Positions 8,260-44,971 of a stretch of 64,000 nucleotides of DNA are shown here, one piece after another (within the stretch, counting starts at the first letter, position 1; the number at the start of each line of letters is the position of its first letter). A program made the translations under genes and the position numbers. Source of the DNA: Rhizoclosmatium globosum (lineage: Eukaryota > Chytridiomycota > Chytridiomycetes > Chytridiales > Chytriomycetaceae); NCBI GenBank assembly GCA_002104985.1, contig MCGO01000205.1:1-64000 (forward strand), written 5' to 3'. The notes below the pieces were generated by a model, which was not told the DNA's origin, did no database searches, and saw nothing but the letters and a program-made list of their open reading frames with translations.

Positions 8260-8330
8260 CAGTGAGTTGTGGTCAAGTTTGGCAAAGAAAAAGTGAAGAC
8301 GTATATTCTTCTTCTCTGAAAATAATAATC

Positions 8331-10268: not shown

Positions 10269-10312
10269 AATAGATGGAGAAGAAGAGAGGGATTTGCATT
10301 TTTTCCTCAGAA

Positions 10313-14556: not shown

Positions 14557-14670
14557 CTTGCTCACAAAAGCAATCCCAGAAAAGATTTTTCTTGCCCTGT
14601 TCGAGAACACCTCCCTTTCCTTCCTGTCGTTGAACAACCCACATCGCCGTTCAAACAGACACACACAAAC
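14557..14670. promoter_or_regulatory. 114-bp divergent promoter between the F-box gene and CHS7
   Basis: The two start codons face away from each other across 114 bp, so both promoters must share this interval or overlap the genes. The spacer is CT-rich on the plus strand and shows no TATA box. It may lie partly inside the F-box gene if translation starts at the upstream ATG at 14664. Confidence 0.5.
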
Positions 14671-17892: not shown

Positions 17893-18530
17893 ATGCTTCA
17901 CTTCATACTTCTTGCGGCGTTTGGCTTTGTCGCCTGTTTCGCAGAGTTGCCCAGAAAGTGCCAACACAGCGATTTCTCGTGTCAGATCTTGAGCGACCCT
18001 TGGGTCAATACATTCTTGAACGTTCCAAGAGGATACGATTTGCACCAGCCAGGTAGCTGTGATGTTTTAAAACTTTGAAGCTTAACTATTTTGTTATTCC
18101 AAAAGGGTATTATGATGCTATAGCCTCAACTGAAATGACTATCAAAGTCAACATTAAAATGTACCCAGATCCACGTTACCCACCCAACCAAAAAGTTTAT
18201 GTCAATGTCACGAACTCTATCAGGTTCATCTGCCCTGGCAACACTTACATTGACCCATGGACAAAGGCCAAAGGCGCGACTGATGTTACTATTACTCTTA
18301 TTGATGGCCAGGATTGTGCTAAGACTCATCAACAAATTCCGGCTCAACAACTTATTTGTGTCAGTGGACCGGATTGCACCAACAGCCCAGGGAAGTATTG
18401 CCATTTAAGAATTGAAGGGGCTTGTGATCCAGTTCCCAATATTTCCGTACCAGAGATCAAGTACATGGGAACATGTGCAACAGGCGGGGTTTGTTTTAGT
18501 GGGGACAAAAACTGTCAACCTGGTCAAACA
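17893..18530 (+). other. N-terminal Cys-rich domain (divergent founder-like copy)
   Basis: This is the first of the 13 Cys-rich domains, split by a phase-1 intron at 18053-18105. It reads KCQHSDFSCQILSDPWV...F, then STEMTIKVNI, FICPGNTYIDPW, LICVSGPDC and GTCATGGVCFSGDKNC. It lacks the second intron present in every other copy. It is clearly less similar to them than they are to each other, so it is probably the oldest copy. Confidence 0.7.
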
Positions 18531-21500
18531 ACTACAACAAGCACAACTTCAAGAACAAGCACCACAACAACTAAAACTACCACCACAAGTACCTCTACAA
18601 CAAAAACTACAACTTCAACGTCAACTACATCTACAACCAAAACTACTTCCTCTAGCACATCAACTACTAAATCCACAACTACAACATCATCCAGCACGTC
18701 TACTACAAGTACTAAAACATCAACTTCAAGCACAACATCTTCAAAAACAACGACTACAAGCACATCAAGCACATCAAGCACCTCCACATCCAGGACTACA
18801 ACTTCCTCATCAACAACTTCAACAATTAAGACCACCAGTTCAACTTCATCCACTTCAAAGACATCATCAACCACAACATCCAACACTTCAACCACAAAAA
18901 CTAGCACTACTTCTTCCACGTCCTCATCCACAAAACTCAGTACAACAACTTCAACCAGTTCAACAAGCAAGACATCTACAACTTCAGCAACAACTTCAAC
19001 CACAAAAACAACAGTCACATCTTCGTCTACAAGCACAAGCACAACTTCTACTAAAACAACCTCCACAAGCAAAACAACATCCACAACTTCTTCAACCTCA
19101 ACTACTTCAATTGCAAAAACCACAACAACATCCTCAACATCAAGCACAAAAACTACTTTGACAACAACAACCTCATCAACTTCAACAACAAAAACAACTC
19201 CGACCACCTCAAGCTCAACAACATCAACAACATCAACTAAAAACAAACCAACTACCAGCACAACAACAACCAGTTCCTCCTCAACAAAAACTAGTCTTAC
19301 AACCACATCTACAACATCAAAAACCTCCACAAGCACAACCACAAAATCCACGTCTACAACACCAAATACAACCACAACATCCAGCACCACACAATCAACT
19401 AAGACTAGTTCAACATCTACCACAAGTGCAACAAAGTCTAGCACTACCTCATCCACAAGCCGCACATCAAGCACTAGCACCACAAGCTCTTCAAGTACAA
19501 CCAAAACTAGTTCAACATCAAGCACAAGAACAACATCAACATCTACAACCACAATCTCAACTGTCAACGGCCAATATTGTTCTCGCACTCAGAATATCTG
19601 TAACATTCAAAGTGATCCTTGGGTCCAGCCTTTCACTCACAATGTGCAAAGCTTTGAGTTTGATCAGACTGGTGAGAAGTGCATTGTGTCTACATGGTTG
19701 TTCCACTGTTAACCTCCTACGCTTTAGGTGAATCCTACATGTTACAGTCCAGTGATATGTCTGTCAAAGTCAATATTACCAGTGCCTGGGACCCCAACAG
19801 GTATAAGCAAGTATTTGTTGTTGATAAAGTTGTGTATACATGTGGAACACAAGTCACAACCTTTACACACGACTCTTTGAAAGGGTCTCAGAGTAAATAT
19901 GCTGATACTCGCTTGTACTGCAACTCTGGCTCTTGTAATGGATCTTCAGGTATGGGCAGGACAGCGTTGGGAGTATCAGTTGATAACATCATCTAACGTT
20001 GTTTCTCTGCAGGCAATGTTTGTTATTTAGTGGTTATTCCAGTATGTGAAGACCCAGTAGATCATGTTCAAGTCCAAGCTATTCAATACATGGGAACCAC
20101 AGCAACAGGTGGAGTTTGCTACAAAGATGACCCAAGCTGCCCAAGTTCTTCTGCATCCTCTAAGCCAGCCACAACAACAACCAGCTCAACAAGCCGTACA
20201 TCCACCTCATCCTCAACAACTAAAACAACTACTTCATCTACAACAAAAACTAGTCTTACAACCACATCTACAACATCAAAAACCTCCACAAGCACAACCA
20301 CAAAATCCACGTCTACAACACCAAATACAACCACAACATCCAGCACCACACAATCCACTAAGACTAGTTCAACATCTACCACAAGTGCAACAAAGTCTAG
20401 CACTACCTCATCCACAAGCCGCACATCAAGCACTAGCACCACAAGCTCTTCAAGTACAACCAAAACTAGTTCAACATCAAGCACAAGAACAACATCAACA
20501 TCTACAACCACAATCTCAACTGTCAACGGCCAATATTGTTCTCGCACTCAGAATATCTGTAACATTCAAAGTGATCCTTGGGTCCAGCCTTTCACTCACA
20601 ATGTGCAAAGCTTTGAGTTTGATCAGACTGGTGAGAAGTGCATTGTGTCTACATGGTTGTTCCACTGTTAACCTCCTACGCTTTAGGTGAATCCTACATG
20701 TTACAGTCCAGTGATATGTCTGTCAAAGTCAATATTACCAGTGCCTGGGACCCCAACAGGTATAAGCAAGTATTTGTTGTTGATAAAGTTGTGTATACAT
20801 GTGGAACACAAGTCACAACCTTTACACACGACTCTTTGAAAGGGTCTCAGAGTAAATATGCTGATACTCGCTTGTACTGCAACTCTGGCTCTTGTAATGG
20901 ATCTTCAGGTATGGGCAGGACAGCGTTGGGAGTATCAGTTGATAACATCATCTAACGTTGTTTCTCTGCAGGCAATGTTTGTTATTTAGTGGTTATTCCA
21001 GTATGTGAAGACCCAGTAGATCATGTTCAAGTCCAAGCTATTCAATACATGGGAACCACAGCAACAGGTGGAGTTTGCTACAAAGATGACCCAACCTGCC
21101 CAAGTTCTTCTGCATCCTCTAAGCCAGCCACAACAACAACCAGCTCAACAAGCCGTACATCCACCTCATCCTCAACAACTAAAACAACTACTTCATCTAC
21201 AACAAAAACTAGTCTTACAACCACATCTACAACATCAAAAACCTCCACAAGCACAACCACAAAATCCACGTCTACAACACCAAATACAACCACAACATCC
21301 AGCACCACACAATCCACTAAGACTAGTTCAACATCTACCACAAGTGCAACAAAGTCTAGCACTACCTCATCCACAAGCCGCACATCAAGCACTAGCACCA
21401 CAAGCTCTTCAAGTACAACCAAAACTAGTTCAACATCAAGCACAAGAACAACATCAACATCTACAACCACAATCTCAACTGTCAACGGCCAATATTGTTC

Positions 21501-24500
21501 TCGCACTCAGAATATCTGTAACATTCAAAGTGATCCTTGGGTCCAGCCTTTCACTCACAATGTGCAAAGCTTTGAGTTTGATCAGACTGGTGAGAAGTGC
21601 ATTGTGTCTACATGGTTGTTCCACTGTTAACCTCCTACGCTTTAGGTGAATCCTACATGTTACAGTCCAGTGATATGTCTGTCAAAGTCAATATTACCAG
21701 TGCCTGGGACCCCAACAGGTATAAGCAAGTATTTGTTGTTGATAAAGTTGTGTATACATGTGGAACACAAGTCACAACCTTTACACACGACTCTTTGAAA
21801 GGGTCTCAGAGTAAATATGCTGATACTCGCTTGTACTGCAACTCTGGCTCTTGTAATGGATCTTCAGGTATGGGCAGGACAGCGTTGGGAGTATCAGTTG
21901 ATAACATCATCTAACGTTGTTTCTCTGCAGGCAATGTTTGTTATTTAGTGGTTATTCCAGTATGTGAAGACCCAGTAGATCATGTTCAAGTCCAAGCTAT
22001 TCAATACATGGGAACCACAGCAACAGGTGGAGTTTGCTACAAAGATGACCCAACCTGCCCAAGTTCTTCTGCATCCTCTAAGCCAGCCACAACAACAACC
22101 AGCTCAACAAGCCGTACATCCACCTCATCCTCAACAACTAAAACAACTACTTCATCTACAACAAAAACTAGTCTTACAACCACATCTACAACATCAAAAA
22201 CCTCCACAAGCACAACCACAAAATCCACGTCTACAGCACCATCATCGACAAGCCGTACATCAAAAACGAGCATTGTAAGCTATTCTTCAACATCCAAGCA
22301 TGCCACCAGTGCTGCTTCTTCCAAGCCTGTCACATCAACATCCAAACATGCCACCAGTGCTGCTTCTTCCAAGCCTGTCACATCAACATCCAAACATGCC
22401 ACCAGTGCTTCCAGTTCCAAACATCTCTCTTCAACATCCAAGCACGCCACCAGTGCTTCCACTTCCAAGCCAGTGTCATCAACATCCAAGCAAGCCACCA
22501 GTGCTTCCACTTCCAAGCCAGTGTCATCAACATCCAAGCATGCCACCAGTGCTGCTTCTTCCAAGCCTGTCACATCAACATCCAAACATGCCACCAGTGC
22601 TTCCAGTTCCAAACATCTCTCTTCAACATCCAAGCACGCCACCAGTGCTGCTTCTTCCAAACATCTCTCTTCAACATCCAAGCATGCCACCAGTGCTTCC
22701 ACTTCCAAGCCAGTGTCATCTACATCCAAGCAAGCCACCAGTGCTTCCACTTCCAAGCCAGTGTCATCAACATCCAAGCATGCCACCAGTGCTGCTTCTT
22801 CCAAGCCTGTCACATCAACATCCAAACATGCCACCAGTGCTTCCAGTTCCAAACATCTCTCTTCAACATCCAAGCACGCCACCAGTGCTGCTTCTTCCAA
22901 ACATCTCTCTTCAACATCCAAGCACGCCACCAGTGCTTCCACTTCCAAGCCAGTGTCATCTACATCCAAGCACGCCACCAGTGCTTCTTCTTCCAGGCCT
23001 GTCTCTTCCACCTTGTCCAAGCACAGTAGTCTCTCACTCACCAAGCCAGCTCCATCAAAGACCCAAACATCTCAAAAGACATCTTGGATCTCAACAGATG
23101 AACAAAAGAGATCAACTTCTTCAACCAAGACTAGTACAAAAGTGTCCACAATCAAGACTACTACGTCTTCAACATCAAAACCAATCTGTGAGAAAACAGA
23201 AGGAGTATGTAAGATTGAGCACAATGCAGACACAGGATTGTTTGTCAGCACATTCAACACAACCCAGTACTACTTTGATTCAAAAGGTAAGTCTCATCAT
23301 TATGGTGTAATATGGCCCCATAGCACTAACAATTTGCATCAACAGGATCTGTTTATGCTCTTCAATCCTCAGATATGACAGTGCAACTTAACATTACCAC
23401 GGATATTGATCCGTCAACCAAGAAACCCATCATTGTGATTGGCAAAGTCATTTTTACCTGTCCTGGAAACAACTATCCTGGTGGAGTGTCTGAGGCCACA
23501 TTTACCTCTGCAACATTGACATCACAGCAAGAACTATATTGCAGTGCTGGTAGCTGTGGTGGAGCTACACCAAGAGGTACAGTTTTTTTATTGGTCTGTT
23601 TCTGAGCATTTCTGAAATAACTTGATTTAGATACATGTGTTTTAAATGTTGAGAAGGACAGTAGAGTTCCTGGATATCTAATTATCACAAGAGTCTTGTA
23701 TATGGGAACAAGGGCATCTGGTGGTATCTGCTACCATGGAAATGGCTCTTGCTTGCCTTCAAAACCAACAACTGGTACATTATCAGCAAGCACAACAAAG
23801 AAGTCATCAACCAGTAGAACAGCATCAACTGTGAGACCTTCTGCAGTAACATCCAAGCAGACCAATGTTTCCAGCAGTAAAACTGGCACATCAGCAAAGC
23901 CTCAGAGCACAAGTTCAAAGTCAGTTGTGTCAAAAGTTCAATCAGCTGCAACTACTCAGAAGACAACAGTTTCCAAGCATGCAAGCAGTGCTAGTACTTC
24001 CAAGCCTGTTGCATCAACCTCCAAACATCTCTCTTCAACATCCAAGCAAGCCACCAGTGCTTCCACTTCCAAGCCAGTGTCATCAACATCCAAGCATGCC
24101 ACCAGTGCTGCTTCTTCCAAGCCTGTCACATCAACATCCAAACATGCCACCAGTGCTTCCAGTTCCAAACATCTCTCTTCAACATCCAAGCACGCCACCA
24201 GTGCTGCTTCTTCCAAACATCTCTCTTCAACATCCAAGCACGCCACCAGTGCTTCCACTTCCAAGCCAGTGTCATCTACATCCAAGCATGCCACCAGTGC
24301 TGCTTCTTCCAAGCCTGTCACATCAACATCCAAACATGCCACCAGTGCTTCCAGTTCCAAACATCTCTCTTCAACATCCAAGCACGCCACCAGTGCTGCT
24401 TCTTCCAAACATCTCTCTTCAACATCCAAGCACGCCACCAGTGCTTCCACTTCCAAGCCAGTGTCATCTACATCCAAGCACGCCACCAGTGCTTCTTCTT

Positions 24501-27500
24501 CCAGGCCTGTCTCTTCCACCTTGTCCAAGCACAGTAGTCTCTCACTCACCAAGCCAGCTCCATCAAAGACCCAAACATCTCAAAAGACATCTTGGATCTC
24601 AACAGATGAACAAAAGAGATCAACTTCTTCAACCAAGACTAGTACAAAAGTGTCCACAATCAAGACTACTACGTCTTCAACATCAAAACCAATCTGTGAG
24701 AAAACAGAAGGAGTATGTAAGATTGAGCACAATGCAGACACAGGATTGTTTGTCAGCACATTCAACACAACCCAGTACTACTTTGATTCAAAGGTAAGTC
24801 TCATCATTATGGTGTAATATGGCCCCATAGCACTAACAATTTGCATCAACAGGATCTGTTTATGCTCTTCAATCCTCAGATATGACAGTGCAACTTAACA
24901 TTACCACGGATATTGATCCGTCAACCAAGAAACCCATCATTGTGATTGGCAAAGTCATTTTTACCTGTCCTGGAAACAACTATCCTGGTGGAGTGTCTGA
25001 GGCCACATTTACCTCTGCAACATTGACATCACAGCAAGAACTATATTGCAGTGCTGGTAGCTGTGGTGGAGCTACACCAAAAGGTACAGTTTTTTTATTG
25101 GTCTGTTTCTGAGCATTTCTGAAATAACTTGATTTAGATACATGTGTTTTAAATGTTGAGAAGGACAGTAGAGTTCCTGGATATCTAATTATCACAAGAG
25201 TCTTGTATATGGGAACAAGGGCATCTGGTGGTATCTGCTACCATGGAAATGGCTCTTGCTTGCCTTCAAAACCAACAACTGGTACATTATCAGCAAGCAC
25301 AACAAAGAAGTCATCAACCAGTAGAACAGCATCAACTGTGAGACCTTCTGCAGTAACATCCAAGCAGACCAATGTTTCCAGCAGTAAAACTGGCACATCA
25401 GCAAAGCCTCAGAGCACAAGTTCAAAGTCAGTTGTGTCAAAAGTTCAATCAGCTGCAACTACTCAGAAGACAACAGTTTCCAAGCATGCAAGCAGTGCTA
25501 GTACTTCCAAGCCTGTTGCATCAACCTCCAAACATCTCTCTTCAACATCCAAGCAAGCCACCAGTGCTTCCACTTCCAAGCCAGTGTCATCAACATCCAA
25601 GCATGCCACCAGTGCTGCTTCTTCCAAGCCTGTCACATCAACATCCAAACATGCCACCAGTGCTTCCAGTTCCAAACATCTCTCTTCAACATCCAAGCAC
25701 GCCACCAGTGCTTCCACTTCCAAGCCTGTCACATCAACATCCAAACATGCCACCAGTGCTTCCACTTCCAAGCCAGTGTCATCAACATCCAAGCATGCCA
25801 CCAGTGCTGCTTCTTCCAAGCCTGTCACATCAACATCCAAACATGCCACCAGTGCTTCCAGTTCCAAACATCTCTCTTCAACATCCAAGCACGCCACCAG
25901 TGCTTCCACTTCCAAGCCAGTGTCATCTACATCCAAGCAAGCCACCAGTGCTTCCACTTCCAAGCCAGTGTCATCAACATCCAAGCATGCCACCAGTGCA
26001 GCTTCTTCCAAGCCTGTCACATCAACATCCAAACATGCCACCAGTGCTTCCAGTTCCAAGCCAGTGTCATCAACATCCAAGCATGCCACCAGTGCTGCTT
26101 CTTCCAAGCCTGTCACATCAACATCCAAACATGCCACCAGTGCTTCCAGTTCCAAACATCTCTCTTCAACATCCAAGCACGCCACCAGTGCTTCCACTTC
26201 CAAGCCTGTCACATCAACATCCAAACATGCCACCAGTGCTTCCAGTTCCAAACATCTCTCTTCAACATCCAAGCACGCCACCAGTGCTTCTTCTTCCAGG
26301 CCTGTCTCTTCCACCTTGTCCAAGCACAGTAGTCTCTCACTCACCAAGCCAGCTCCATCAAAGACCCAAACATCTCAAAAGACATCTTGGATCTCAACAG
26401 ATGAACAAAAGAGATCAACTTCTTCAACCAAGACTAGTACAAAAGTGTCCACAATCAAGACTACTACGTCTTCAACATCAAAACCAATCTGTGAGAAAAC
26501 AGAAGGAGTATGTAAGATTGAGCACAATGCAGACACAGGATTGTTTGTCAGCACATTCAACACAACCCAGTACTACTTTGATTCAAAAGGTAAGTCTCAT
26601 CATTATGGTGTAATATGGCCCCATAGCACTAACAATTTGCATCAACAGGATCTGTTTATGCTCTTCAATCCTCAGATATGACAGTGCAACTTAACATTAC
26701 CACGGATATTGATCCGTCAACCAAGAAACCCATCATTGTGATTGGCAAAGTCATTTTTACCTGTCCTGGAAACAACTATCCTGGTGGAGTGTCTGAGGCC
26801 ACATTTACCTCTGCAACATTGACATCACAGCAAGAACTATATTGCAGTGCTGGTAGCTGTGGTGGAGCTACACCAAAAGGTACAGTTTTTTTATTGGTCT
26901 GTTTCTGAGCATTTCTGAAATAACTTGATTTAGATACATGTGTTTTAAATGTTGAGAAGGACAGTAGAGTTCCTGGATATCTAATTATCACAAGAGTCTT
27001 GTATATGGGAACAAGGGCATCTGGTGGTATCTGCTACCATGGAAATGGCTCTTGCTTGCCTTCAAACCAACAACTGGTACATTATCAGCAAGCACAACAA
27101 AGAAGTCATCAACCAGTAGAACAGCATCAACTGTGAGACCTTCTGCAGTAACATCCAAGCAGACCAATGTTTCCAGCAGTAAAACTGGCACATCAGCAAA
27201 GCCTCAGAGCACAAGTTCAAAGTCAGTTGTGTCAAAAGTTCAATCAGCTGCAACTACTCAGAAGACAACAGTTTCCAAGCATGCAAGCAGTGCTAGTACT
27301 TCCAAGCCTGTTGCATCAACCTCCAAACATCTCTCTTCAACATCCAAGCAAGCCACCAGTGCTTCCACTTCCAAGCCAGTGTCATCAACATCCAAGCATG
27401 CCACCAGTGCTGCTTCTTCCAAGCCTGTCACATCAACATCCAAACATGCCACCAGTGCTTCCAGTTCCAAACATCTCTCTTCAACATCCAAGCACGCCAC

Positions 27501-30500
27501 CAGTGCTTCCACTTCCAAGCCTGTCACATCAACATCCAAACATGCCACCAGTGCTTCCACTTCCAAGCCTGTCACATCAACATCCAAACATGCCACCAGT
27601 GCTTCCAGTTCCAAACATCTCTCTTCAACATCCAAGCACGCCACCAGTGCTTCCACTTCCAAGCCAGTGTCATCTACATCCAAGCAAGCCACCAGTGCTT
27701 CCACTTCCAAGCCAGTGTCATCAACATCCAAGCATGCCACCAGTGCAGCTTCTTCCAAGCCTGTCACATCAACATCCAAACATGCCACCAGTGCTTCCAG
27801 TTCCAAGCCAGTGTCATCAACATCCAAGCATGCCACCAGTGCTGCTTCTTCCAAGCCTGTCACATCAACATCCAAACATGCCACCAGTGCTTCCAGTTCC
27901 AAACATCTCTCTTCAACATCCAAGCACGCCACCAGTGCTTCCACTTCCAAGCCTGTCACATCAACATCCAAACATGCCACCAGTGCTTCCAGTTCCAAAC
28001 ATCTCTCTTCAACATCCAAGCACGCCACCAGTGCTTCCACTTCCAAGCCAGTGTCATCTACATCCAAGCAAGCCACCAGTGCTTCCACTTCCAAGCCAGT
28101 GTCATCTACATCCAAGCACGCCACCAGTGCTTCTTCTTCCAGGCCTGTCTCTTCCACCTTGTCCAAGCACAGTAGTCTCTCACTCACCAAGCCAGCTCCA
28201 TCAAAGACCCAAACATCTCAAAAGACATCTTGGATCTCAACAGATGAACAAAAGAGATCAACTTCTTCAACCAAGACTAGTACAAAAGTGTCCACAATCA
28301 AGACTACTACGTCTTCAACATCAAAACCAATCTGTGAGAAAACAGAAGGAGTATGTAAGATTGAGCACAATGCAGACACAGGATTGTTTGTCAGCACATT
28401 CAACACAACCCAGTACTACTTTGATTCAAAAGGTAAGTCTCATCATTATGGTGTAATATGGCCCCATAGCACTAACAATTTGCATCAACAGGATCTGTTT
28501 ATGCTCTTCAATCCTCAGATATGACAGTGCAACTTAACATTACCACGGATATTGATCCGTCAACCAAGAAACCCATCATTGTGATTGGCAAAGTCATTTT
28601 TACCTGTCCTGGAAACAACTATCCTGGTGGAGTGTCTGAGGCCACATTTACCTCTGCAACATTGACATCACAGCAAGAACTATATTGCAGTGCTGGTAGC
28701 TGTGGTGGAGCTACACCAAGAGGTACAGTTTTTTTATTGGTCTGTTTCTGAGCATTTCTGAAATAACTTGATTTAGATACATGTGTTTTAAATGTTGAGA
28801 AGGACAGTAGAGTTCCTGGATATCTAATTATCACAAGAGTCTTGTATATGGGAACAAGGGCATCTGGTGGTATCTGCTACCATGGAAATGGCTCTTGCTT
28901 GCCTTCAAAACCAACAACTGGTACATTATCAGCAAGCACAACAAAGAAGTCATCAACCAGTAGAACAGCATCAACTGTGAGACCTTCTGCAGTAACATCC
29001 AAGCAGACCAATGTTTCCAGCAGTAAAACTGGCACATCAGCAAAGCCTCAGAGCACAAGTTCAAAGTCAGTTGTGTCAAAAGTTCAATCAGCTGCAACTA
29101 CTCAGAAGACAACAGTTTCCAAGCATGCAAGCAGTGCTAGTACTTCCAAGCCTGTTGCATCAACCTCCAAACATCTCTCTTCAACATCCAAGCAAGCCAC
29201 CAGTGCTTCCACTTCCAAGCCAGTGTCATCAACATCCAAGCATGCCACCAGTGCTGCTTCTTCCAAGCCTGTCACATCAACATCCAAACATGCCACCAGT
29301 GCTTCCAGTTCCAAACATCTCTCTTCAACATCCAAGCACGCCACCAGTGCTGCTTCTTCCAAGCCTGTCACATCAACATCCAAACATGCCACCAGTGCTT
29401 CCAGTTCCAAGCCAGTGTCATCAACATCCAAGCATGCCACCAGTGCTGCTTCTTCCAAGCCTGTCACATCAACATCCAAACATGCCACCAGTGCTTCCAG
29501 TTCCAAACATCTCTCTTCAACATCCAAGCACGCCACCAGTGCTTCCACTTCCAAGCCTGTCACATCAACATCCAAACATGCCACCAGTGCTTCCAGTTCC
29601 AAACATCTCTCTTCAACATCCAAGCACGCCACCAGTGCTTCCACTTCCAAGCCTGTCACATCAACATCCAAACATGCCACCAGTGCTTCCAGTTCCAAAC
29701 ATCTCTCTTCAACATCCAAGCACGCCACCAGTGCTGCTTCTTCCAAGCCTGTCACATCAACATCCAAACATGCCACCAGTGCTTCCAGTTCCAAACATCT
29801 CTCTTCAACATCCAAGCACGCCACCAGTGCTTCCACTTCCAAGCCAGTGTCATCTACATCCAAGCACGCCACCAGTGCTTCTTCTTCCAGGCCTGTCTCT
29901 TCCACCTTGTCCAAGCACAGTAGTCTCTCACTCACCAAGCCAGCTCCATCAAAGACCCAAACATCTCAAAAGACATCTTGGATCTCAACAGATGAACAAA
30001 AGAGATCAACTTCTTCAACCAAGACTAGTACAAAAGTGTCCACAATCAAGACTACTACGTCTTCAACATCAAAACCAATCTGTGAGAAAACAGAAGGAGT
30101 ATGTAAGATTGAGCACAATGCAGACACAGGATTGTTTGTCAGCACATTCAACACAACCCAGTACTACTTTGATTCAAAAGGTAAGTCTCATCATTATGGT
30201 GTAATATGGCCCCATAGCACTAACAATTTGCATCAACAGGATCTGTTTATGCTCTTCAATCCTCAGATATGACAGTGCAACTTAACATTACCACGGATAT
30301 TGATCCGTCAACCAAGAAACCCATCATTGTGATTGGCAAAGTCATTTTTACCTGTCCTGGAAACAACTATCCTGGTGGAGTGTCTGAGGCCACATTTACC
30401 TCTGCAACATTGACATCACAGCAAGAACTATATTGCAGTGCTGGTAGCTGTGGTGGAGCTACACCAAGAGGTACAGTTTTTTTATTGGTCTGTTTCTGAG

Positions 30501-33500: not shown

Positions 33501-36500
33501 CAAACATGCCACCAGTGCTTCCAGTTCCAAACATCTCTCTTCAACATCCAAGCACGCCACCAGTGCTTCCACTTCCAAGCCAGTGTCATCTACATCCAAG
33601 CACGCCACCAGTGCTTCTTCTTCCAGGCCTGTCTCTTCCACCTTGTCCAAGCACAGTAGTCTCTCACTCACCAAGCCAGCTCCATCAAAGACCCAAACAT
33701 CTCAAAAGACATCTTGGATCTCAACAGATGAACAAAAGAGATCAACTTCTTCAACCAAGACTAGTACAAAAGTGTCCACAATCAAGACTACTACGTCTTC
33801 AACATCAAAACCAATCTGTGAGAAAACAGAAGGAGTATGTAAGATTGAGCACAATGCAGACACAGGATTGTTTGTCAGCACATTCAACACAACCCAGTAC
33901 TACTTTGATTCAAAAGGTAAGTCTCATCATTATGGTGTAATATGGCCCCATAGCACTAACAATTTGCATCAACAGGATCTGTTTATGCTCTTCAATCCTC
34001 AGATATGACAGTGCAACTTAACATTACCACGGATATTGATCCGTCAACCAAGAAACCCATCATTGTGATTGGCAAAGTCATTTTTACCTGTCCTGGAAAC
34101 AACTATCCTGGTGGAGTGTCTGAGGCCACATTTACCTCTGCAACATTGACATCACAGCAAGAACTATATTGCAGTGCTGGTAGCTGTGGTGGAGCTACAC
34201 CAAGAGGTACAGTTTTTTTATTGGTCTGTTTCTGAGCATTTCTGAAATAACTTGATTTAGATACATGTGTTTTAAATGTTGAGAAGGACAGTAGAGTTCC
34301 TGGATATCTAATTATCACAAGAGTCTTGTATATGGGAACAAGGGCATCTGGTGGTATCTGCTACCATGGAAATGGCTCTTGCTTGCCTTCAAAACCAACA
34401 ACTGGTACATTATCAGCAAGCACAACAAAGAAGTCATCAACCAGTAGAACAGCATCAACTTTGAGACCTTCTGCAGTAACATCCAAGCAGACCAATGTTT
34501 CCAGCAGTAAAACTGGCACATCAGCAAAGCCTCAGAGCACAAGTTCAAAGTCAGTTGTGTCAAAAGTTCAATCAGCTGCAACTACTCAGAAGACAACAGT
34601 TTCCAAGCATGCAAGCAGTGCTAGTACTTCCAAGCCTGTTGCATCAACCTCCAAACATCTCTCTTCAACATCAAAACATGCCACCAGTGCTTCCACTTCC
34701 AAGCCAGTGTCATCTACATCCAAACATGCCACCAGTGCTTCCACTTCCAAGCCTGTCGCATCAACATCCAAACATGCCACCAGTGCTTCCAGTTCCAAAC
34801 ATCTCTCTTCAACATCCAAGCACGCCACCAGTGCTGCTTCTTCCAAGCCTGTCACATCAACATCCAAACATGCCACCAGTGCTTCCAGTTCCAAGCCAGT
34901 GTCATCAACATCCAAGCATGCCACCAGTGCTGCTTCTTCCAAGCCTGTCACATCAACATCCAAACATGCCACCAGTGCTTCCAGTTCCAAACATCTCTCT
35001 TCAACATCCAAGCACGCCACCAGTGCTGCTTCTTCCAAACATCTCTCTTCAACATCCAAGCACGCCACCAGTGCTGCTTCTTCCAAGCCTGTCACATCAA
35101 CATCCAAACATGCCACCAGTGCTTCCAGTTCCAAACATCTCTCTTCAACATCCAAGCACGCCACCAGTGCTTCTTCTTCCAGGCCTGTCTCTTCCACCTT
35201 GTCCAAGCACAGTAGTCTCTCACTCACCAAGCCAGCTCCATCAAAGACCCAAACATCTCAAAAGACATCTTGGATCTCAACAGATGAACAAAAGAGATCA
35301 ACTTCTTCAACCAAGACTAGTACAAAAGTGTCCACAATCAAGACTACTACGTCTTCAACATCAAAACCAATCTGTGAGAAAACAGAAGGAGTATGTAAGA
35401 TTGAGCACAATGCAGACACAGGATTGTTTGTCAGCACATTCAACACAACCCAGTACTACTTTGATTCAAAAGGTAAGTCTCATCATTATGGTGTAATATG
35501 GCCCCATAGCACTAACAATTTGCATCAACAGGATCTGTTTATGCTCTTCAATCCTCAGATATGACAGTGCAACTTAACATTACCACGGATATTGATCCGT
35601 CAACCAAGAAACCCATCATTGTGATTGGCAAAGTCATTTTTACCTGTCCTGGAAACAACTATCCTGGTGGAGTGTCTGAGGCCACATTTACCTCTGCAAC
35701 ATTGACATCACAGCAAGAACTATATTGCAGTGCTGGTAGCTGTGGTGGAGCTACACCAAAAGGTGCGGTTTTTTTATTGGTCTGTTTCTGAGCATTTCTG
35801 AAATAACTTGATTTAGATACATGTGTTTTAAATGTTGAGAAGGACAGTAGAGTTCCTGGATATCTAATTATCACAAGAGTCTTGTATATGGGAACAAGGG
35901 CATCTGGTGGTATCTGCTACCATGGAAATGGCTCTTGCTTGCCTTCAAAACCAACAACTGGTACATTATCAGCAAGCACAACAAAGAAGTCATCAACCAG
36001 TAGAACAGCATCAACTGTGAGACCTTCTGCAGTAACATCCAAGCAGACCAATGTTTCCAGCAGTAAAACTGGCACATCAGCAAAGCCTCAGAGCACAAGT
36101 TCAAAGTCAGTTGTGTCAAAAGTTCAATCAGCTGCAACTACTCAGAAGACAACAGTTTCCAAGCATGCAAGCAGTGCTAGTACTTCCAAGCCTGTTGCAT
36201 CAACCTCCAAACATCTCTCTTCAACATCAAAACATGCCACCAGTGCTTCCACTTCCAAGCCAGTGTCATCTACATCCAAACATGCCACCAGTGCTGCTTC
36301 TTCCAATCCTGTCACATCAACATCCAAACATGCCACCAGTGCTTCCAGTTCCAAACATCTCTCTTCAACATCCAAGCACGCCACCAGTGCTTCCACTTCC
36401 AAGCCTGTCACATCAACATCCAAACATGCCACCAGTGCTTCCAGTTCCAAACATCTCTCTTCAACATCCAAGCACGCCACCAGTGCTTCCACTTCCAAGC

Positions 36501-39500
36501 CTGTCACATCAACATCCAAACATGCCACCAGTGCTTCCAGTTCCAAACATCTCTCTTCAACATCCAAGCACGCCACCAGTGCTTCTTCTTCCAGGCCTGT
36601 CTCTTCCACCTTGTCCAAGCACAGTAGTCTCTCACTCACCAAGCCAGCTCCATCAAAGACCCAAACATCTCAAAAGACATCTTGGATCTCAACAGATGAA
36701 CAAAAGAGATCAACTTCTTCAACCAAGACTAGTACAAAAGTGTCCACAATCAAGACTACTACGTCTTCAACATCAAAACCAATCTGTGAGAAAACAGAAG
36801 GAGTATGTAAGATTGAGCACAATGCAGACACAGGATTGTTTGTCAGCACATTCAACACAACCCAGTACTACTTTGATTCAAAAGGTAAGTCTCATCATTA
36901 TGGTGTAATATGGCCCCATAGCACTAACAATTTGCATCAACAGGATCTGTTTATGCTCTTCAATCCTCAGATATGACAGTGCAACTTAACATTACCACGG
37001 ATATTGATCCGTCAACCAAGAAACCCATCATTGTGATTGGCAAAGTCATTTTTACCTGTCCTGGAAACAACTATCCTGGTGGAGTGTCTGAGGCCACATT
37101 TACCTCTGCAACATTGACATCACAGCAAGAACTATATTGCAGTGCTGGTAGCTGTGGTGGAGCTACACCAAAAGGTACAGTTTTTTTATTGGTCTGTTTC
37201 TGAGCATTTCTGAAATAACTTGATTTAGATACATGTGTTTTAAATGTTGAGAAGGACAGTAGAGTTCCTGGATATCTAATTATCACAAGAGTCTTGTATA
37301 TGGGAACAAGGGCATCTGGTGGTATCTGCTACCATGGAAATGGCTCTTGCTTGCCTTCAAAACCAACAACTGGTACATTATCAGCAAGCACAACAAAGAA
37401 GTCATCAACCAGTAGAACAGCATCAACTGTGAGACCTTCTGCAGTAACATCCAAGCAGACCAATGTTTCCAGCAGTAAAACTGGCACATCAGCAAAGCCT
37501 CAGAGCACAAGTTCAAAGTCAGTTGTGTCAAAAGTTCAATCAGCTGCAACTACTCAGAAGACAACAGTTTCCAAGCATGCAAGCAGTGCTAGTACTTCCA
37601 AGCCTGTTGCATCAACCTCCAAACATCTCTCTTCAACATCAAAACATGCCACCAGTGCTTCTTCTTCCAGGCCTGTCTCTTCCACCTTGTCCAAGCACAG
37701 TAGTCTCTCACTCACCAAGCCAGCTCCATTAAAGACGCAAACATCTCAAAAGACATCTTGGATCTCAACAGATGAACAAAAGAGATCAACTTCTTCAACC
37801 AAGACTAGTACAAAAGTATTTACAAGCAAAAGTGTCTATAGTAAAACAAAGACATCACTACATACAAGAAGAACTGTCTATTCCACAACAGGAATAATTC
37901 AAACATCAAAAACTGAAATGACTCCAACAACCACATCACTGTTTACTTTAAATTCAAGATTCAGCAGTAGGATCACAAGTACAAAAATTAAATTGACTAA
38001 GACTAAAACGAAGAGTTCAAATGCTGCAAAGACTTTCACTTCTTCATTTACATCAACAACTGTGGCAACACAGTCCACAAGTGCTGCAGTTTCTGGCACA
38101 ACCAGCAACACCCCTGTGAGTGTTCCAACCTCACCAAGTGTTGAGCCTAGCAGTACATCGGCTGCCTCAGTAAGTAGCTTTTGTTGTTTTTCAGAGCTTT
38201 CTTACTAATATTTGTACTAGACCTTTGTTTCAAGCCAAACATCTAGCAGACCAGCAGAGGACAGCTCATCAACAGTTCAGACAAGCTCGTGGATTTCAAC
38301 AGGTGATATTAAACGCTCCACAAGTGCAACCAGTGTTTCCTCAGAGTCAGCACCAACTGTGCCAGCTACATCCTCACTGGGCTCTAGTTCTGTGGCTTCA
38401 CAATCTATATCCTCCAGCTCCATGTCTGGCAGTTCTCCTGCCAGTGTGCCGTCCTCAACTAACGCTGAGTCAACTACTTTGTCCACAATGTCTCAGCCTG
38501 GCTCCAGTAGTGTGGCAACACAGTCCACAAGTGCTGCAGTTTCTGGCACAACCAGCAACACCCCTGTGAGTGTTCCAACCTCACCAAGTGTTGAGCCTAG
38601 CAGTACATCGGCTGCCTCAGTAAGTAGCTTTTGTTGTTTTTCAGAGCTTTCTTACTAATATTTGTACTAGACCTTTGTTTCAAGCCAAACATCTAGCAGA
38701 CCAGCAGAGGACAGCTCATCAACAGTTCAGACAAGCTCGTGGATTTCAACAGGTGATATTAAACGCTCCACAAGTGCAACCAGTGTTTCCTCAGAGTCAG
38801 CACCAACTGTGCCAGCTACATCCTCACTGGGCTCTAGTTCTGTGGCTTCACAATCTATATCCTCCAGCTCCATGTCTGGCAGTTCTCCTGCCAGTGTGCC
38901 GTCCTCAACTAACGCTGAGTCAACTACTTTGTCCACAATGTCTCAGCCTGGCTCCAGTAGTGTGGCAACACAGTCCACAAGTGCTGCAGTTTCTGGCACA
39001 ACCAGCAACACCCCTGTGAGTGTTCCAACCTCACCAAGTGTTGAGCCTAGCAGTACATCGGCTGCCTCAGTAAGTAGCTTTTGTTGTTTCTCAGAGCTTT
39101 CTTACTAATATTTGTACTAGACCTTTGTTTCAAGCCAAACATCTAGCAGACCAGCAGAGGACAGCTCATCAACAGTTCAGACAAGCTCGTGGATTTCAAC
39201 AGGTGATATTAAACGCTCCACAAGTGCAACCAGTGTTTCCTCAGAGTCAGCACCAACTGTGCCAGCTACATCCTCACTGGGCTCTAGTTCTGTGGCTTCA
39301 CAATCTATATCCTCCAGCTCCATGTCTGGCAGTTCTCCTGCCAGTGTGCCGTCCTCAACTAACGCTGAGTCAACTACTTTGTCCACAATGTCTCAGCCTG
39401 GCTCCAGTAGTGTGGCAACACAGTCCACAAGTGCTGCAGTTTCTGGCACAACCAGCAACACCCCTGTGAGTGTTCCAACCTCACCAAGTGTTGAGCCTAG

Positions 39501-42500
39501 CAGTACATCGGCTGCCTCAGTAAGTAGCTTTTGTTGTTTCTCAGAGCTTTCTTACTAATATTTGTACTAGACCTTTGTTTCAAGCCAAACATCTAGCAGA
39601 CCAGCAGAGGACAGCTCATCAACAATTCAGACAAGCTCGTGGATTTCAACAGGTGATATTAAACGCTCCACAAGTGCAACCAGTGTTTCCTCAGAGTCAG
39701 CACCAACTGTGCCAGCTACATCCTCACTGGGCTCTAGTTCTGTGGCTTCACAATCTATATCCTCCAGCTCCATGTCTGGCAGTTCTCCTGCCAGTGTGCC
39801 GTCCTCAACTAACGCTGAGTCAACTACTTTGTCCACAATGTCTCAGCCTGGCTCCAGTAGTGTGGCAACACAGTCCACAAGTGCTGCAGTTTCTGGCACA
39901 ACCAGCAACACCCCTGTGAGTGTTCCAACCTCACCAAGTGTTGAGCCTAGCAGTACATCGGCTGCCTCAGTAAGTAGCTTTTGTTGTTTCTCAGAGCTTT
40001 CTTACTAATATTTGTACTAGACCTTTGTTTCAAGCCAAACATCTAGCAGACCAGCAGAGGACAGCTCATCAACAGTTCAGACAAGCTCGTGGATTTCAAC
40101 AGGTGATATTAAACGCTCCACAAGTGCAACCAGTGTTTCCTCAGAGTCAGCACCAACTGTGCCAGCTACATCCTCACTGGGCTCTAGTTCTGTGGCTTCA
40201 CAATCTATATCCTCCAGCTCCATGTCTGGCAGTTCTCCTGCCAGTGTGCCGTCCTCAACTAACGCTGAGTCAACTACTTTGTCCACAATGTCTCAGCCTG
40301 GCTCCAGTAGTGTGGCAACACAGTCCACAAGTGCTGCAGTTTCTGGCACAACCAGCAACACCCCTGTGAGTGTTCCAACCTCACCAAGTGTTGAGCCTAG
40401 CAGTACATCGGCTGCCTCAGTAAGTAGCTTTTGTTGTTTCTCAGAGCTTTCTTACTAATATTTGTACTAGACCTTTGTTTCAAGCCAAACATCTAGCAGA
40501 CCAGCAGAGGACAGCTCATCAACAGTTCAGACAAGCTCGTGGATTTCAACAGGTGATATTAAACGCTCCACAAGTGCAACCAGTGTTTCCTCAGAGTCAG
40601 CACCAACTGTGCCAGCTACATCCTCACTGGGCTCTAGTTCTGTGGCTTCACAATCTATATCCTCCAGCTCCATGTCTGGCAGTTCTCCTGCCAGTGTGCC
40701 GTCCTCAACTAACGCTGAGTCAACTACTTTGTCCACAATGTCTCAGCCTGGCTCCAGTAGTGTGGCAACACAGTCCACAAGTGCTGCAGTTTCTGGCACA
40801 ACCAGCAACACCCCTGTGAGTGTTCCAACCTCACCAAGTGTTGAGCCTAGCAGTACATCGGCTGCCTCAGTAAGTAGCTTTTGTTGTTTCTCAGAGCTTT
40901 CTTACTAATATTTGTACTAGACCTTTGTTTCAAGCCAAACATCTAGCAGACCAGCAGAGGACAGCTCATCAACAGTTCAGACAAGCTCGTGGATTTCAAC
41001 AGGTGATATTAAACGCTCCACAAGTGCAACCAGTGTTTCCTCAGAGTCAGCACCAACTGTGCCAGCTACATCCTCACTGGGCTCTAGTTCTGTGGCTTCA
41101 CAATCTATATCCTCCAGCTCCATGTCTGGCAGTTCTCCTGCCAGTGTGCCGTCCTCAACTAACGCTGAGTCAACTACTTTGTCCACAATGTCTCAGCCTG
41201 GCTCCAGTAGTGTGGCAACACAGTCCACAAGTGCTGCAGTTTCTGGCACAACCAGCAACACCCCTGTGAGTGTTCCAACCTCACCAAGTGTTGAGCCTAG
41301 CAGTACATCGGCTGCCTCAGTAAGTAGCTTTTGTTGTTTCTCAGAGCTTTCTTACTAATATTTGTACTAGACCTTTGTTTCAAGCCAAACATCTAGCAGA
41401 CCAGCAGAGGACAGCTCATCAACAGTTCAGACAAGCTCGTGGATTTCAACAGGTGATATTAAACGCTCCACAAGTGCAACCAGTGTTTCCTCAGAGTCAG
41501 CACCAACTGTGCCAGCTACATCCTCACTGGGCTCTAGTTCTGTGGCTTCACAATCTATATCCTCCAGCTCCATGTCTGGCAGTTCTCCTGCCAGTGTGCC
41601 GTCCTCAACTAACGCTGAGTCAACTACTTTGTCCACAATGTCTCAGCCTGGCTCCAGTAGTGTGGCAACACAGTCCACAAGTGCTGCAGTTTCTGGCACA
41701 ACCAGCAACACCCCTGTGAGTGTTCCAACCTCACCAAGTGTTGAGCCTAGCAGTACATCGGCTGCCTCAGTAAGTAGCTTTTGTTGTTTCTCAGAGCTTT
41801 CTTACTAATATTTGTACTAGACCTTTGTTTCAAGCCAAACATCTAGCAGACCAGCAGAGGACAGCTCATCAACAGTTCAGACAAGCTCGTGGATTTCAAC
41901 AGGTGATATTAAACGCTCCACAAGTGCAACCAGTGTTTCCTCAGAGTCAGCACCAACTGTGCCAGCTACATCCTCACTGGGCTCTAGTTCTGTGACTTCA
42001 CAATCTATATCCTCCAGCTCCATGTCTGGCAGTTCTCCTGCCAGTGTGCCGTCCTCAACTAACGCTGAGTCAACTACTTTGTCCACAATGTCTCAGCCTG
42101 GCTCCAGTAGTGTGGCAACACAGTCCACAAGTGCTGCAGTTTCTGGCACAACCAGCAACACCCCTGTGAGTGTTCCAACCTCACCAAGTGTTGAGCCTAG
42201 CAGTACATCGGCTGCCTCAGTAAGTAGCTTTTGTTGTTTCTCAGAGCTTTCTTACTAATATTTGTACTAGACCTTTGTTTCAAGCCAAACATCTAGCAGA
42301 CCAGCAGAGGACAGCTCATCAACAGTTCAGACAAGCTCGTGGATTTCAACAGGTGATATTAAACGCTCCACAAGTGCAACCAGTGTTTCCTCAGAGTCAG
42401 CACCAACTGTGCCAGCTACATCCTCACTGGGCTCTAGTTCTGTGGCTTCACAATCTATATCCTCCAGCTCCATGTCTGGCAGTTCTCCTGCCAGTGTGCC

Positions 42501-43920
42501 GTCCTCAACTAACGCTGAGTCAACTACTTTGTCCACAATGTCTCAGCCTGGCTCCAGTAGTGTGGCAACACAGTCCACAAGTGCTGCAGTTTCTGGCACA
42601 ACCAGCAACACCCCTGTGAGTGTTCCAACCTCACCAAGTGTTGAGCCTAGCAGTACATCGGCTGCCTCAGTAAGTAGCTTTTGTTGTTTCTCAGAGCTTT
42701 CTTACTAATATTTGTACTAGACCTTTGTTTCAAGCCAAACATCTAGCAGACCAGCAGAGGACAGCTCATCAACAGTTCAGACAAGCTCGTGGATTTCAAC
42801 AGGTGATATTAAACGCTCCACAAGTGCAACCAGTGTTTCCTCAGAGTCAGCACCAACTGTGCCAGCTACATCCTCACTGGGCTCTAGTTCTGTGGCTTCA
42901 CAATCTATATCCTCCAGCTCCATGTCTGGCAGTTCTCCTGTCAGTGCTCCTTCTTCAACTGGTACTAAGCAAGTCACTGCATCTTCCTGGGCTTTTAGTT
43001 CTATCTCTTCAAAGGTCATGGAGTCTGTCTCTATTTCTGTCACTCCAGTCTCAACTGTCCTGTTATCACCTCCTGTTCAATTTACAAGTAGTATCCAGTC
43101 TGTTACTCCTGTAACACAGTCATCTGAAGATGCATCAAGGTCTAGGACTACATCTGGATCATTTTTATCTTCAGCTGGCTTTATTCGAACTAAGTCTGAT
43201 TCTTCAGTACACACAAGTAATGCTGTTCCACAGGTTGCATCAACTAAAACTGTATCAAATACTTACATTGAATCTAATGAGCCGTTACGTACAAAAACAA
43301 CACTGTTGGAAAGTTTGACCATTTCATCAGCAACTGTCCCTGCTTCAATTTTTGTCACAGCATCTGTTACTCCACCATGTCCAATTGCTACAACACCTGC
43401 AGCTCTTCCACCATGTCCACTTGTGACAACTACTACTCCTGCTGGACCAGCATGTCCACTTGCTACCACAACTCACACTGTACCACCATGCCCTCTTGTG
43501 TCAACTGCACCAGCAACTCCTCCATGTCCTCTTGCAATTACAACTCCGGCTATTCTACCATGTCCACTTGCAACAACAACATCTGCTGCAGCAGTATGTC
43601 CACTTGTAACAACAACTCCAAATGTACCACCATGTCCACTAGCAGTTCCATCAACAACTGCAGCATTATGTCCTCTTGTGACCACACCAACACCTATTGT
43701 TCCACCTGTTCCTCCATTTGTTCCTTCAACTTTATCATCAAGAGTCTCTCCTACTCCTGCTCCTACCCCTGTTCCTGTCATCACAGTTCCAATTCCAATG
43801 TCAAGCACCAATTCCTCCAATGAAACTGCAGTTATATTGACAAAGCTTCCAGTTTCAAAAGGGGTTAAGTCTTTTGCAACTGGAACAATGCTGGGTCTGA
43901 TGCTCCTTTTTGTTTTATAA
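17893..43920 (+). CDS. Giant mucin-like, repeat-built secreted/GPI-type surface protein
   Basis: One gene of about 26 kb and 37 exons, coding for about 8,010 residues. Exon 1 starts MLHFILLAAFGFVACFA, a clear signal peptide. Thirteen copies of a Cys-rich domain follow: one at the N-terminus, three of type A, nine of type B. They alternate with Ser/Thr/Lys-rich linkers likely to be O-glycosylated. Then come about eleven 133-residue Ser-rich units, a Cys-Pro-Leu repeat stretch, and a C-terminal hydrophobic tail (FATGTMLGLMLLFVL) after SSTNSSN, like a GPI signal. Each Cys-rich domain is cut by two phase-1 introns (53-63 nt). The last part uses phase-0 introns of 51 nt. Two one-base deletions (about 24785 and 27065) break the frame in the assembly. 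A wall-anchored adhesin or gel-forming mucin is the likely role, by inference; I know no named family with this layout. Confidence 0.8.
18530..19560 (+). repeat. Thr/Ser-rich mucin-like linker
   Basis: About 340 residues, almost only Thr, Ser and Lys (ACA/ACT/AGC/TCA/AAA codons), in imperfect short repeats of TTST/STTKT type. It is a continuous low-complexity tract on the plus strand. The complementary strand is also open, giving a Val/Asp/Leu-rich shadow ORF. Dense O-mannosylation would be expected in a fungus. Confidence 0.85.
19280..22230 (+). repeat. 959-bp exon+intron tandem repeat, 3 copies (type A modules)
   Basis: The unit repeats with an exact 959-bp period (for example 20030, 20989, 21948) and near-perfect identity in exons and introns; only scattered single-base differences are seen, such as AGC versus ACC at 20133 and 21092. 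Each unit has a Thr/Ser linker and a Cys-rich domain (SDPWVQPFTHNVQSFEFDQTG + ESYMLQSSDMSVKVNI...). Introns of 56 and 63 nt, both phase 1, interrupt it. The coding content is 840 nt, so 280 residues per copy. Confidence 0.92.
22276..37672 (+). repeat. 48-bp minisatellite arrays (16-residue Ser/Lys repeat), ten blocks
   Basis: The 48-bp unit codes for variants of STSKHATSASTSKPVS; the main variants end KPVS, KPVT or KHLS, and some start STSKQ. The first block (22276 to about 23010) has about 15 units and the last (about 37571-37670) only a few. Nine type B domains separate the blocks. The distances between successive B domains differ by whole multiples of 48 bp once the two one-base deletions are allowed for, so length varies only by unit gain or loss. 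Confidence 0.93.
23181..37361 (+). repeat. Type B Cys-rich domain, nine near-identical copies each with two introns
   Basis: Copies lie at about 23181-23763, 24689-25270, 26484-27066, 28327-28909, 30075-30657, 31679-32261, 33811-34393, 35367-35949 and 36779-37361. Each reads ICEKTEGVCKIEHNADTG...FDSK, intron (59 nt), GSVYALQSSDMTVQLNITTD...LYCSAGSCGGATP, intron (54 nt), DTCVLNVEKDSRVPG...GICYHGNGSC. Intron phases are both 1, at the same places as in type A. The middle exon is 231 nt. Differences between copies are single bases such as AGAG versus AAAG before the second intron. Confidence 0.92.
38063..42948 (+). repeat. 450-bp exon+intron tandem repeat, about 11 copies
   Basis: The period is exactly 450 bp: a 399-nt exon (133 codons) plus a 51-nt phase-0 intron. 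Introns begin at 38170, 38620, 39070 and so on to 42670. Copies are almost identical through intron and exon; differences include TTTTCAG versus TTCTCAG in the intron of the first two copies, GTT/ATT near 39626 and GCT/ACT near 41995. The coded units are Ser/Thr-rich without Cys. The last copy diverges at about 42949 into the unique C-terminal exon. Confidence 0.94.
43360..43720 (+). repeat. Cys-Pro-Leu repeat stretch near the C-terminus
   Basis: About ten imperfect repeats of (P)PCPLATTT type, 10-15 residues each, bring one Cys per repeat into an otherwise Thr/Pro/Ala-rich region. The stretch sits just before a Pro-rich spacer and the GPI-like tail, so these cysteines would lie close to the membrane or wall and could crosslink chains. 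Confidence 0.85.
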
Positions 43921-43982: not shown

Positions 43983-44944
43983 TTATTGTGCTACATTGGA
44001 ATACACATCAAATCTTCTTTGATTATTGACAGGGATATTTTCTCTGGAAGTTTGCAAGAACTCAATGTCCAGTTCAGCATACGCAATGTCTTCTTTTTCA
44101 TCCAGTTTAGCAACAACAACACCCATTGGATCAACTACAGATGAGTGACCCCAAGCAACATAGGAAGCAGTTGTATCACGAGCTGGAGAACAGGCAGCAA
44201 CGTACATTTGGTTATCAATTGCTCTGGCTCGTTGGAGAAGCTCCCACTATAACATCACAATTAACTCCAAAACGAACGAAGCCCACGTACATGCAAGGGA
44301 CCAGTTGTCATATTAAAGGCGCCAGGGTAAATCATGGCGATGCATCCTTTACGAGCGGCAATCATGGCCATCTCAGGAAAACGTATGTCGTAGCAGATAC
44401 CGACCCCAACTTTACCCACGGGGGTATCAAACATAGTAATTTCAGATCCTGCACTTAACACAGAAGACTCTTTGAAGGTTTGCTTTCCAGGAATGTCAAT
44501 GTCGAACAGGTGGACCTAATTCGATTTCAGCAATACGAAACGTAACATGATCGTTCGTACCTTGCGATGAACGCCAAGTCGATCTCCATTAGGCCCCCAG
44601 ATTGTGCAAGTATTATAGAACTTGGAGTTTGGGCCAGTCTCAGGGAAAGAGCCGCCAATTAAGAAGACACCTCCGTCCTTTGCCATTTGGGATAAGGCAG
44701 CAGAGGATGGACCATTTTCGAGTGGCTCTGCATACTTGGGAAAAAACGATGTTCCATATGGACTGTTAAAACATTCTAGAGAGGCGGATAGTTTAAGTAG
44801 CATCACTCTTGTTCTATATGACCTACCAGGCAGTACAACGATGCTTGCTCCTTTGGAAGCAGCCTCCAACACCTTTTTTCGAGCATTGGCAAGGTTTGTT
44901 TCTTTTGAGGCTGTAACAGCAAGCTGGATCAGGGCTAGGCGCAT
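43983..44944 (-). CDS. NIT2: Omega-amidase / Nit2-type nitrilase
   Basis: Carbon-nitrogen hydrolase of 273 residues, the usual Nit2 length. The Nit2 branch hydrolyses alpha-ketoglutaramate and alpha-ketosuccinamate in the cytosol and mitochondria. Four exons (44944-44827, 44775-44561, 44515-44291, 44246-43983) join in frame. The full catalytic triad is present: Glu in [13 protein letters not shown] (formed across intron 1), Lys in [14 protein letters not shown] (across intron 2), and Cys in [11 protein letters not shown]. Also typical are [15 protein letters not shown] and [10 protein letters not shown]. The first codons ([10 protein letters not shown]) already form strand 1, so a shorter start is unlikely. 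It is head-to-head with ATP11. A Nit3/Nit1-type hydrolase is the alternative, but the NSPYGT motif favours Nit2. Confidence 0.92.
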
Positions 44945-44971
44945 TTCTGTCGTTTTCCTTTTGCAAAAAGG
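44945..44971. promoter_or_regulatory. 27-bp gap between divergent NIT2 and ATP11 start codons
   Basis: Only 27 bp separate two opposite ATGs whose N-termini both look genuine. Core promoters of both genes must therefore overlap the neighbouring coding sequence or a shared nucleosome-free site. No TATA motif is seen. Confidence 0.6.

Follow-up and report, generated by a model that had tools for sequence, protein, structure and literature searches.

Mucus built from von Willebrand type D (VWD) domains combined with mucin tracts is usually regarded as an animal design, and animal mucins show differences in repeat number between alleles. Fungal adhesins anchored by glycosylphosphatidylinositol (GPI), such as the flocculins, Als and Hyr/Iff, consist of a leader, Ser/Thr-rich repeats and a GPI signal, vary in repeat number between alleles, and carry ligand domains of other folds. 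FCGBP is described in PMC10880436 as a protein of 13 VWD units in full D assemblies with 11 GDPH cleavage sites, and the account in PMC7335047 places VWD domains in proteins of diatom adhesive trails (vWD/GDPH). Among the matches listed for a literature search on von Willebrand and VWD terms, no title or abstract opening gave a fungal case, which does not establish absence from print. Here we describe a putative fungal counterpart: a giant mucin-like gene in the first 64 kb of contig C119 (GenBank MCGO01000205.1) of the chytrid Rhizoclosmatium globosum, whose assembly comprises 56.9 Mb in 420 contigs. This stretch, at its full length, is called the window below.

The gene model, read from genomic sequence alone, spans 26,028 bp of the forward strand (17893-43920), or 41% of the window, from a start ATG at 17893 to a stop at 43918-43920, and its exons total 24,040 bases. 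A first-pass annotation had proposed a single giant gene of about 8,000 residues filling 40% of the window, with a signal peptide, 13 Cys-rich domains, Ser/Thr/Lys linkers, a Ser-rich block and a GPI-like tail; the model of 37 exons and about 8,013 codons bears this out, and each of these parts is present in the sequence. The 13 domains comprise one N-terminal type, three of a second type and nine of a third type. All 36 introns run from GT to AG and are 51-63 bp long. Six recurring kinds can be told apart, each of constant length: 53 bp (found once), 56 and 63 bp (three times each), 59 and 54 bp (nine times each) and 51 bp (11 times). An uninterrupted frame that agrees with intron phase is found in 36 of the 37 exons. 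Exons that follow a Cys-domain intron begin in phase 1, which makes the Cys domain a symmetrical 1-1 module that can be multiplied while the frame is kept; exons of the 450-bp units in the Ser-rich block are entered in phase 0.

A second copy, on contig C223, shares the 13-domain layout but differs in its repeat numbers. Long blocks of its flanks align collinearly with the window at 97.7-99.8% identity (two insertions excepted), and from this sequence comparison it is probably the other haplotype. Long linker exons are open in one frame only in both copies (0.6-1.8 kb in the window, a frame-broken one excepted, and 0.6-2.1 kb in C223), and this single-frame openness is more than chance. The exons between two third-type domains (16 in all, eight per copy) vary by whole 48-bp units: their length is 12 modulo 48 in 14 cases and 11 modulo 48, that is, one base short, in the remaining two, which both lie in the window. 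The copies also differ in how many 450-bp units they have, with 11 introns of that kind in the window and nine in C223. Divergence among the nine tandem third-type domains is 0.24% in the middle exon and 0% and 0.8% in its two introns; as the tandem copies are nearly identical, the third-type array was multiplied or homogenised recently.

The single signal peptide, the single GPI-type tail, the open exons and the same layout on a second contig support reading the interval as one gene. We surveyed every Met of 36 of the 37 exons, omitting the exon with an internal break: only the Met at 17893 is followed by a hydrophobic leader, and the C-terminal tail is the only further place where a Met precedes a hydrophobic stretch. 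No in-frame stop lies inside these 36 exons. Two irregularities of one base weigh against this reading, and were missing from the first-pass annotation when it claimed that consistent splice sites join all the parts, a claim that otherwise stands: exon 23631-24793, though open, lacks one base at its donor, and within exon 26934-28432 the frame is broken by one base. They would suit the alternative that the interval holds several independent genes or a decaying pseudogene array. In C223, however, all 35 exons are open and the sole irregularity, an exon one base short, lies elsewhere; because the positions differ between the copies, the three irregularities are most likely assembly errors, although real lesions are possible. 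When the copies were compared codon by codon, exon 1 showed no difference, and exon 2 and the last exon together showed four, all synonymous. Given these observations, together with the open exons, one leader and one tail, several genes or a pseudogene array would be highly improbable.

The Cys-rich domain looks like a divergent VWD-like fold, as judged from models and profile comparison. The sequences modelled are close family relatives and not the spliced domain of the window itself, and confidence is low for their N-terminal strand. In structure comparison (VIA-align), rows 1-30 of 50 for model 1 and rows 1-24 of 44 for model 2 are all VWD folds, and a gap of 2.6-3 Z units lies below them in both. 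Foldseek placed VWD proteins first for model 1, with no E below 0.02, and for model 2 gave three VWD proteins at the top, followed by unrelated folds. When the domain was searched by profile, a check that the first-pass annotation had put forward, Pfam was silent, while the family profile aligned to real VWD sequences (hhalign) scored 33.9, above all 200 shuffles (best 19.0), and in the correct register, at the C..GDPHxxTFDG..F.F strand region. The possibility of an unrelated Cys-rich beta-sandwich that merely resembles VWD is one to which we give little credence, as it conflicts with the run of VWD folds at the top of both structural comparisons, the gap below it, and the in-register profile match.

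The divergence of the presumed VWD-like domain is considerable. None of 18 family domains reached the Pfam cut-off for VWD (PF00094, 22.9 bits), the best scores being 14.8 bits for a longer paralogue ORF (open reading frame) and 10.6 bits for the database protein P0005, and PF00094 had no match in the R. globosum genome, an uninformative result given that it matched none of the 14 control genomes either. Single domains of the three window types matched nothing in Pfam at E<=10; across the 18 members, Pfam returned only four other families, with one or two members each, and NCBIfam seven families with one member each. A sequence search of the PDB gave no match with one domain or with the profile. 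A DP pair occurs within the first ~30 residues in 13 of the 18 domains. At the C-terminal CGLC motif, two of the 18 have CG[LI]C and 16, read from the printed list, the looser G-x-C-[YF], the window's three types carrying GG[VI]C[YF]. None of the three window types, which read SDPW, SDPW and HNADTGLF, has the His of GDPH; DPH was found in one of the 18, a paralogue. Self-cleavage at Asp-Pro was considered and dropped on account of this missing His: section 2.4 of PMC10880436 describes both the Asp and the His as essential to GDPH self-cleavage.

A search with domain sequences placed the family at no fewer than about eight loci in its own genome, presumed haplotig pairs being merged and locus counts being lower bounds: window/C223, C399/C70, two groups on C90/C328, C90/C150, C90/C84, C133/C384/C388, and C46. 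Several copies are intronless across the domain, which fixed its borders, given here as approximate. The alignment of 18 members has the consensus C..C.I..DP.V.PF.G..F.....G..YA..S.EM.V...I in its first part and V...V.YTC ... L.C..G.C....C ... N.D...L.Y.G..G.GG.CY in later blocks. Leaders, Ser/Thr-rich tracts and GPI-type tails are also found in some paralogues. In the protein database, where later searches scored ~8,000 candidates, relatives were found only in Rhizoclosmatium (P0001-P0005) and Podochytrium (P0006), which is weak evidence for a narrow range. The window domain is 99% identical to P0002 of Rhizoclosmatium hyalinum over 76% of the query domain, and 45% identical to P0003 of Rhizoclosmatium sp. 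JEL0117 over 90%; a paralogue is 95% identical to P0005 of R. hyalinum; and P0006, from a genus also in the Chytriomycetaceae, is a two-domain protein with a leader and a Ser/Thr-rich linker. P0002, the closest database protein by identity, is a 129-residue 'partial' entry, as expected from the earlier prediction that annotation would fragment such a gene.

The paralogue on C46 (L041, G000:C46:249670-252481) has three VWD-like domains, Ser/Thr-rich linkers and a C-terminal chitin-binding domain, its exons presumably forming one gene. Its last exon matches the chitin-binding domain of chitinase C (1wvv, E 7e-7; 2d49, E 6e-6), and its match to Pfam CBM_5_12_2 (E 0.006) is below the family cut-off. 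P0003, its counterpart in JEL0117, has nearly the same tail; a Pfam 'Keratin' match on P0003 was set aside as a composition match. More mucin-like relatives lie at L038 (G000:C399:746027-752288) and L037 (G000:C90:250002-254934), which between them include one stretch with six VWD-like domains, and one of which has an open Ser/Thr/Ala-rich tract of at least ~800 residues after the domains.

Between its domains, the window protein is mucin-like in composition. Overall, the exon translations contain S 0.277, T 0.187 and K 0.077, and the three stretches measured, with S+T of 0.53-0.87 and P of only 0.01-0.08, are long Pro/Thr/Ser (PTS) tracts. The one linker of 48-bp repeats that was measured is basic (K+R 0.137, H 0.056, acid 0.005), and the stalk unit is Ser-rich (K+R 0.023, acid 0.045). 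A Pfam 'YTV' match on the 48-bp repeats was read as a composition match. Third-type domains have eight cysteines, as do 14 of the 18 family members; because the second and first types have odd numbers (9 and 11), unpaired cysteines are possible. With the nine cysteines of the last exon, these odd numbers are only suggestive of disulphide-linked multimers.

MUC2, MUC5AC, MUC5B and VWF have the VWD-type fold proposed for the window protein, and the three mucins are likewise giant secretory proteins with long Ser/Thr-rich repeat tracts. Unlike in gel-forming mucins and VWF, the VWD-like domains of the window protein stand alone between linkers, most of the linkers are basic, the domain falls far below the Pfam VWD cut-off, and the protein ends in a GPI-type tail. 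By Pfam, no C8, TIL, E, VWC or cystine-knot module was found in the domains or in seven exon ORFs, and divergent modules could escape such a search, as VWD did; in place of a C-terminal cystine knot, the last exon has no Pfam match and ends in the GPI-type tail. The earlier comparison with the logic of gel-forming mucins thus gains in one respect, as the domain models as the fold of their core domain, and fails in another: the window protein falls outside the usual definition of a gel-forming mucin and is mucin-like in layout; since it carries a GPI-type tail, and C8, TIL and cystine-knot modules went undetected, 'gel-forming' is an analogy and not a membership.

FCGBP resembles the window protein in having many VWD units per chain (13 in each); in contrast to FCGBP, the window protein has bare domains separated by long Ser/Thr tracts and lacks the catalytic GDPH His. 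The diatom vWD/GDPH proteins, likened here by description only, also place VWD in secreted adhesive proteins of unicellular eukaryotes, in another lineage. With fungal GPI adhesins the window protein shares the leader, Ser/Thr-rich repeats, GPI signal and repeat variation, the signal peptide and GPI signal that mark GPI-anchored fungal surface proteins being present as judged by sequence inspection and hydropathy only; the adhesins have one terminal head, whereas the window protein has 13 internal Cys-rich domains. No Pfam adhesin domain was reported for the scanned domains and seven exon ORFs. In the window protein, a divergent VWD domain would be put to use bare, within a GPI mucin of a fungus.

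As to function, we lean, a little beyond an even chance, towards an adhesive coat protein that bears VWD-like beads, is O-glycosylated and GPI-anchored, and is encoded by one Rhizoclosmatium gene; its glycosylation, anchoring, cross-linking, adhesion and life stage are what we infer for it. The signal peptide would lead it into the secretory pathway, and the C-terminal signal would anchor it to membrane or wall, presenting 13 bare disulphide-bonded VWD-fold beads on long Ser/Thr-rich, mostly Lys/His-rich linkers and a Ser-rich stalk. The linkers may be heavily O-glycosylated (O-mannosylated, as this is a fungus) and the chain stiffened by O-mannosylation, giving a bottle-brush coat on the naked zoospore, the young germling or the sporangium wall. 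At about 0.25 nm per residue, ~6,000 linker residues could reach ~1.5 micrometres from the surface. Wet adhesion, to surfaces rich in chitin or bearing charge, would come from the beads together with the basic linkers, and spare cysteines may form cross-links between chains; the chitin-binding domain of the C46 paralogue counts as support from relatives for substrate binding. A 1983 study cited in PMC8887899 reportedly dealt, by its title, with zoospore cell coats in Chytriomyces. R. globosum is described in PMC12115818 as living attached to chitin exuviae, and chytrid zoospores as having no wall.

Two other functions deserve consideration. The protein may be mainly a secreted or shed gel, released from its anchor to fill the discharge plug or else the matrix in which zoospores develop: its size, Ser and Thr content, and odd cysteine numbers (9 and 11) in two domain types suit a cross-linked gel, and PMC8887899 describes a fibrillar discharge plug in R. 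globosum sporangia and, in developing zoospores, Golgi and a vesicle class unseen in mature ones. The GPI-type tail favours attachment instead, and we consider such a gel unlikely. A signal peptide, Ser/Thr-rich stalk and GPI-type tail also make up the general plan of fungal wall proteins, and an ORF for a Chs7 chitin synthase chaperone lies 2.9 kb upstream; the protein might accordingly be a common type of GPI glycoprotein of the cell wall, acting as a long spacer with a covalent bond to wall glucan, structural rather than adhesive. This would leave the 13 conserved Cys-rich domains and the paralogue with a chitin-binding domain unexplained, and appears quite unlikely. An adhesive, anchored coat is the function that we prefer.

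Table 1. Proposed features of the giant gene, in window coordinates.
Feature	Position	Strand	Basis
Whole gene model: 37 exons, 36 short introns, ~8,013 codons	17893..43920	+	sequence; second copy on C223
Putative signal peptide MLHFILLAAFGFVACFA	17893..17943	+	sequence, hydropathy; cleavage site placed by inspection
Cys-rich VWD-like domain 1, N1 type, 11 Cys, intron 18053-18105	17959..18518	+	
Ser/Thr-rich linker, S+T 0.865 over 18540-19560	18519..19565	+	
VWD-like domain 2, second type, 9 Cys, introns 19672-19727 and 19950-20012	19566..20149	+	
VWD-like domain 3, second type	20525..21108	+	
VWD-like domain 4, second type	21484..22067	+	
First of nine 48-bp repeat linker arrays, SKHATSASTSKPVSST-like, 16-residue unit	22287..23005	+	
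VWD-like domain 5, third type, 8 Cys, introns 23287-23345 and 23577-23630	23183..23755	+	
48-bp repeat arrays 2-5	24030-24513, 25537-26308, 27332-28151, 29176-29899	+	
VWD-like domain 6, third type; upstream exon one base short at 24793	24690..25262	+	
VWD-like domain 7, third type; exon 26934-28432 frame-broken internally	26486..27058	+	
VWD-like domain 8, third type	28329..28901	+	
VWD-like domain 9, third type	30077..30649	+	
48-bp repeat arrays 6-9	30924-31503, 32528-33635, 34660-35191, 36216-36606	+	
VWD-like domain 10, third type	31681..32253	+	
VWD-like domain 11, third type	33813..34385	+	
VWD-like domain 12, third type; second intron 35763-35816 starts GTGCGG, not GTACAG	35369..35941	+	
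VWD-like domain 13, third type	36781..37353	+	
Ser-rich block: 450-bp unit x 10.9, 11 phase-0 introns of 51 bp	38061..42960	+	
Pro/Thr-rich 12-residue repeats with single cysteines, PPCPLxTTTPA-like	43372..43678	+	
Putative GPI-type C-terminal signal KGVKSFATGTMLGLMLLFVL	43858..43917	+	sequence, hydropathy

Elsewhere in the window, ~4.8 kb at 3864-8700 are missing from the collinear C223; the segment holds a DDE_1/Tc5-type transposase ORF (6713-7939, reverse strand) and is probably a haplotype-specific transposon insertion. At ~10286-10291, where C223 has ~4.4 kb extra, the aligned blocks overlap by 6 bp, which looks like the target-site duplication of another insertion. The Chs7-type chitin synthase export chaperone ORF (14482-15000, forward strand; PF12271, E 1e-22) lies ~2.9 kb upstream of the giant gene. 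Neighbouring ORFs at 44516-45034 (reverse), 56178-56963 (forward) and 10933-12006 (forward) match the carbon-nitrogen hydrolase, fatty acid desaturase and phosphatidylethanolamine-binding protein families.

Tentatively, and with somewhat less than even confidence, we hypothesize that chytrids make VWD mucins of their own: a family of bare-VWD bottle-brush proteins, one of them ~8,000 residues long, that would form a cross-linked adhesive coat on wall-less zoospores, and whose design either preceded the split between animals and fungi or was invented twice. Whatever its function, the locus illustrates how a giant repeat gene interrupted by introns can end up as 'partial' annotation fragments. 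If the hypothesis is true, the protein would represent a novel type of sticky fungal coat and offer a tangible candidate for what covers chytrid zoospores and attaches them. Finding this design in a fungal lineage whose spores swim freely and lack a wall would also bear on whether it is older than animals; under the first of the two origins, the VWD-plus-mucin design would have survived in zoosporic fungi.
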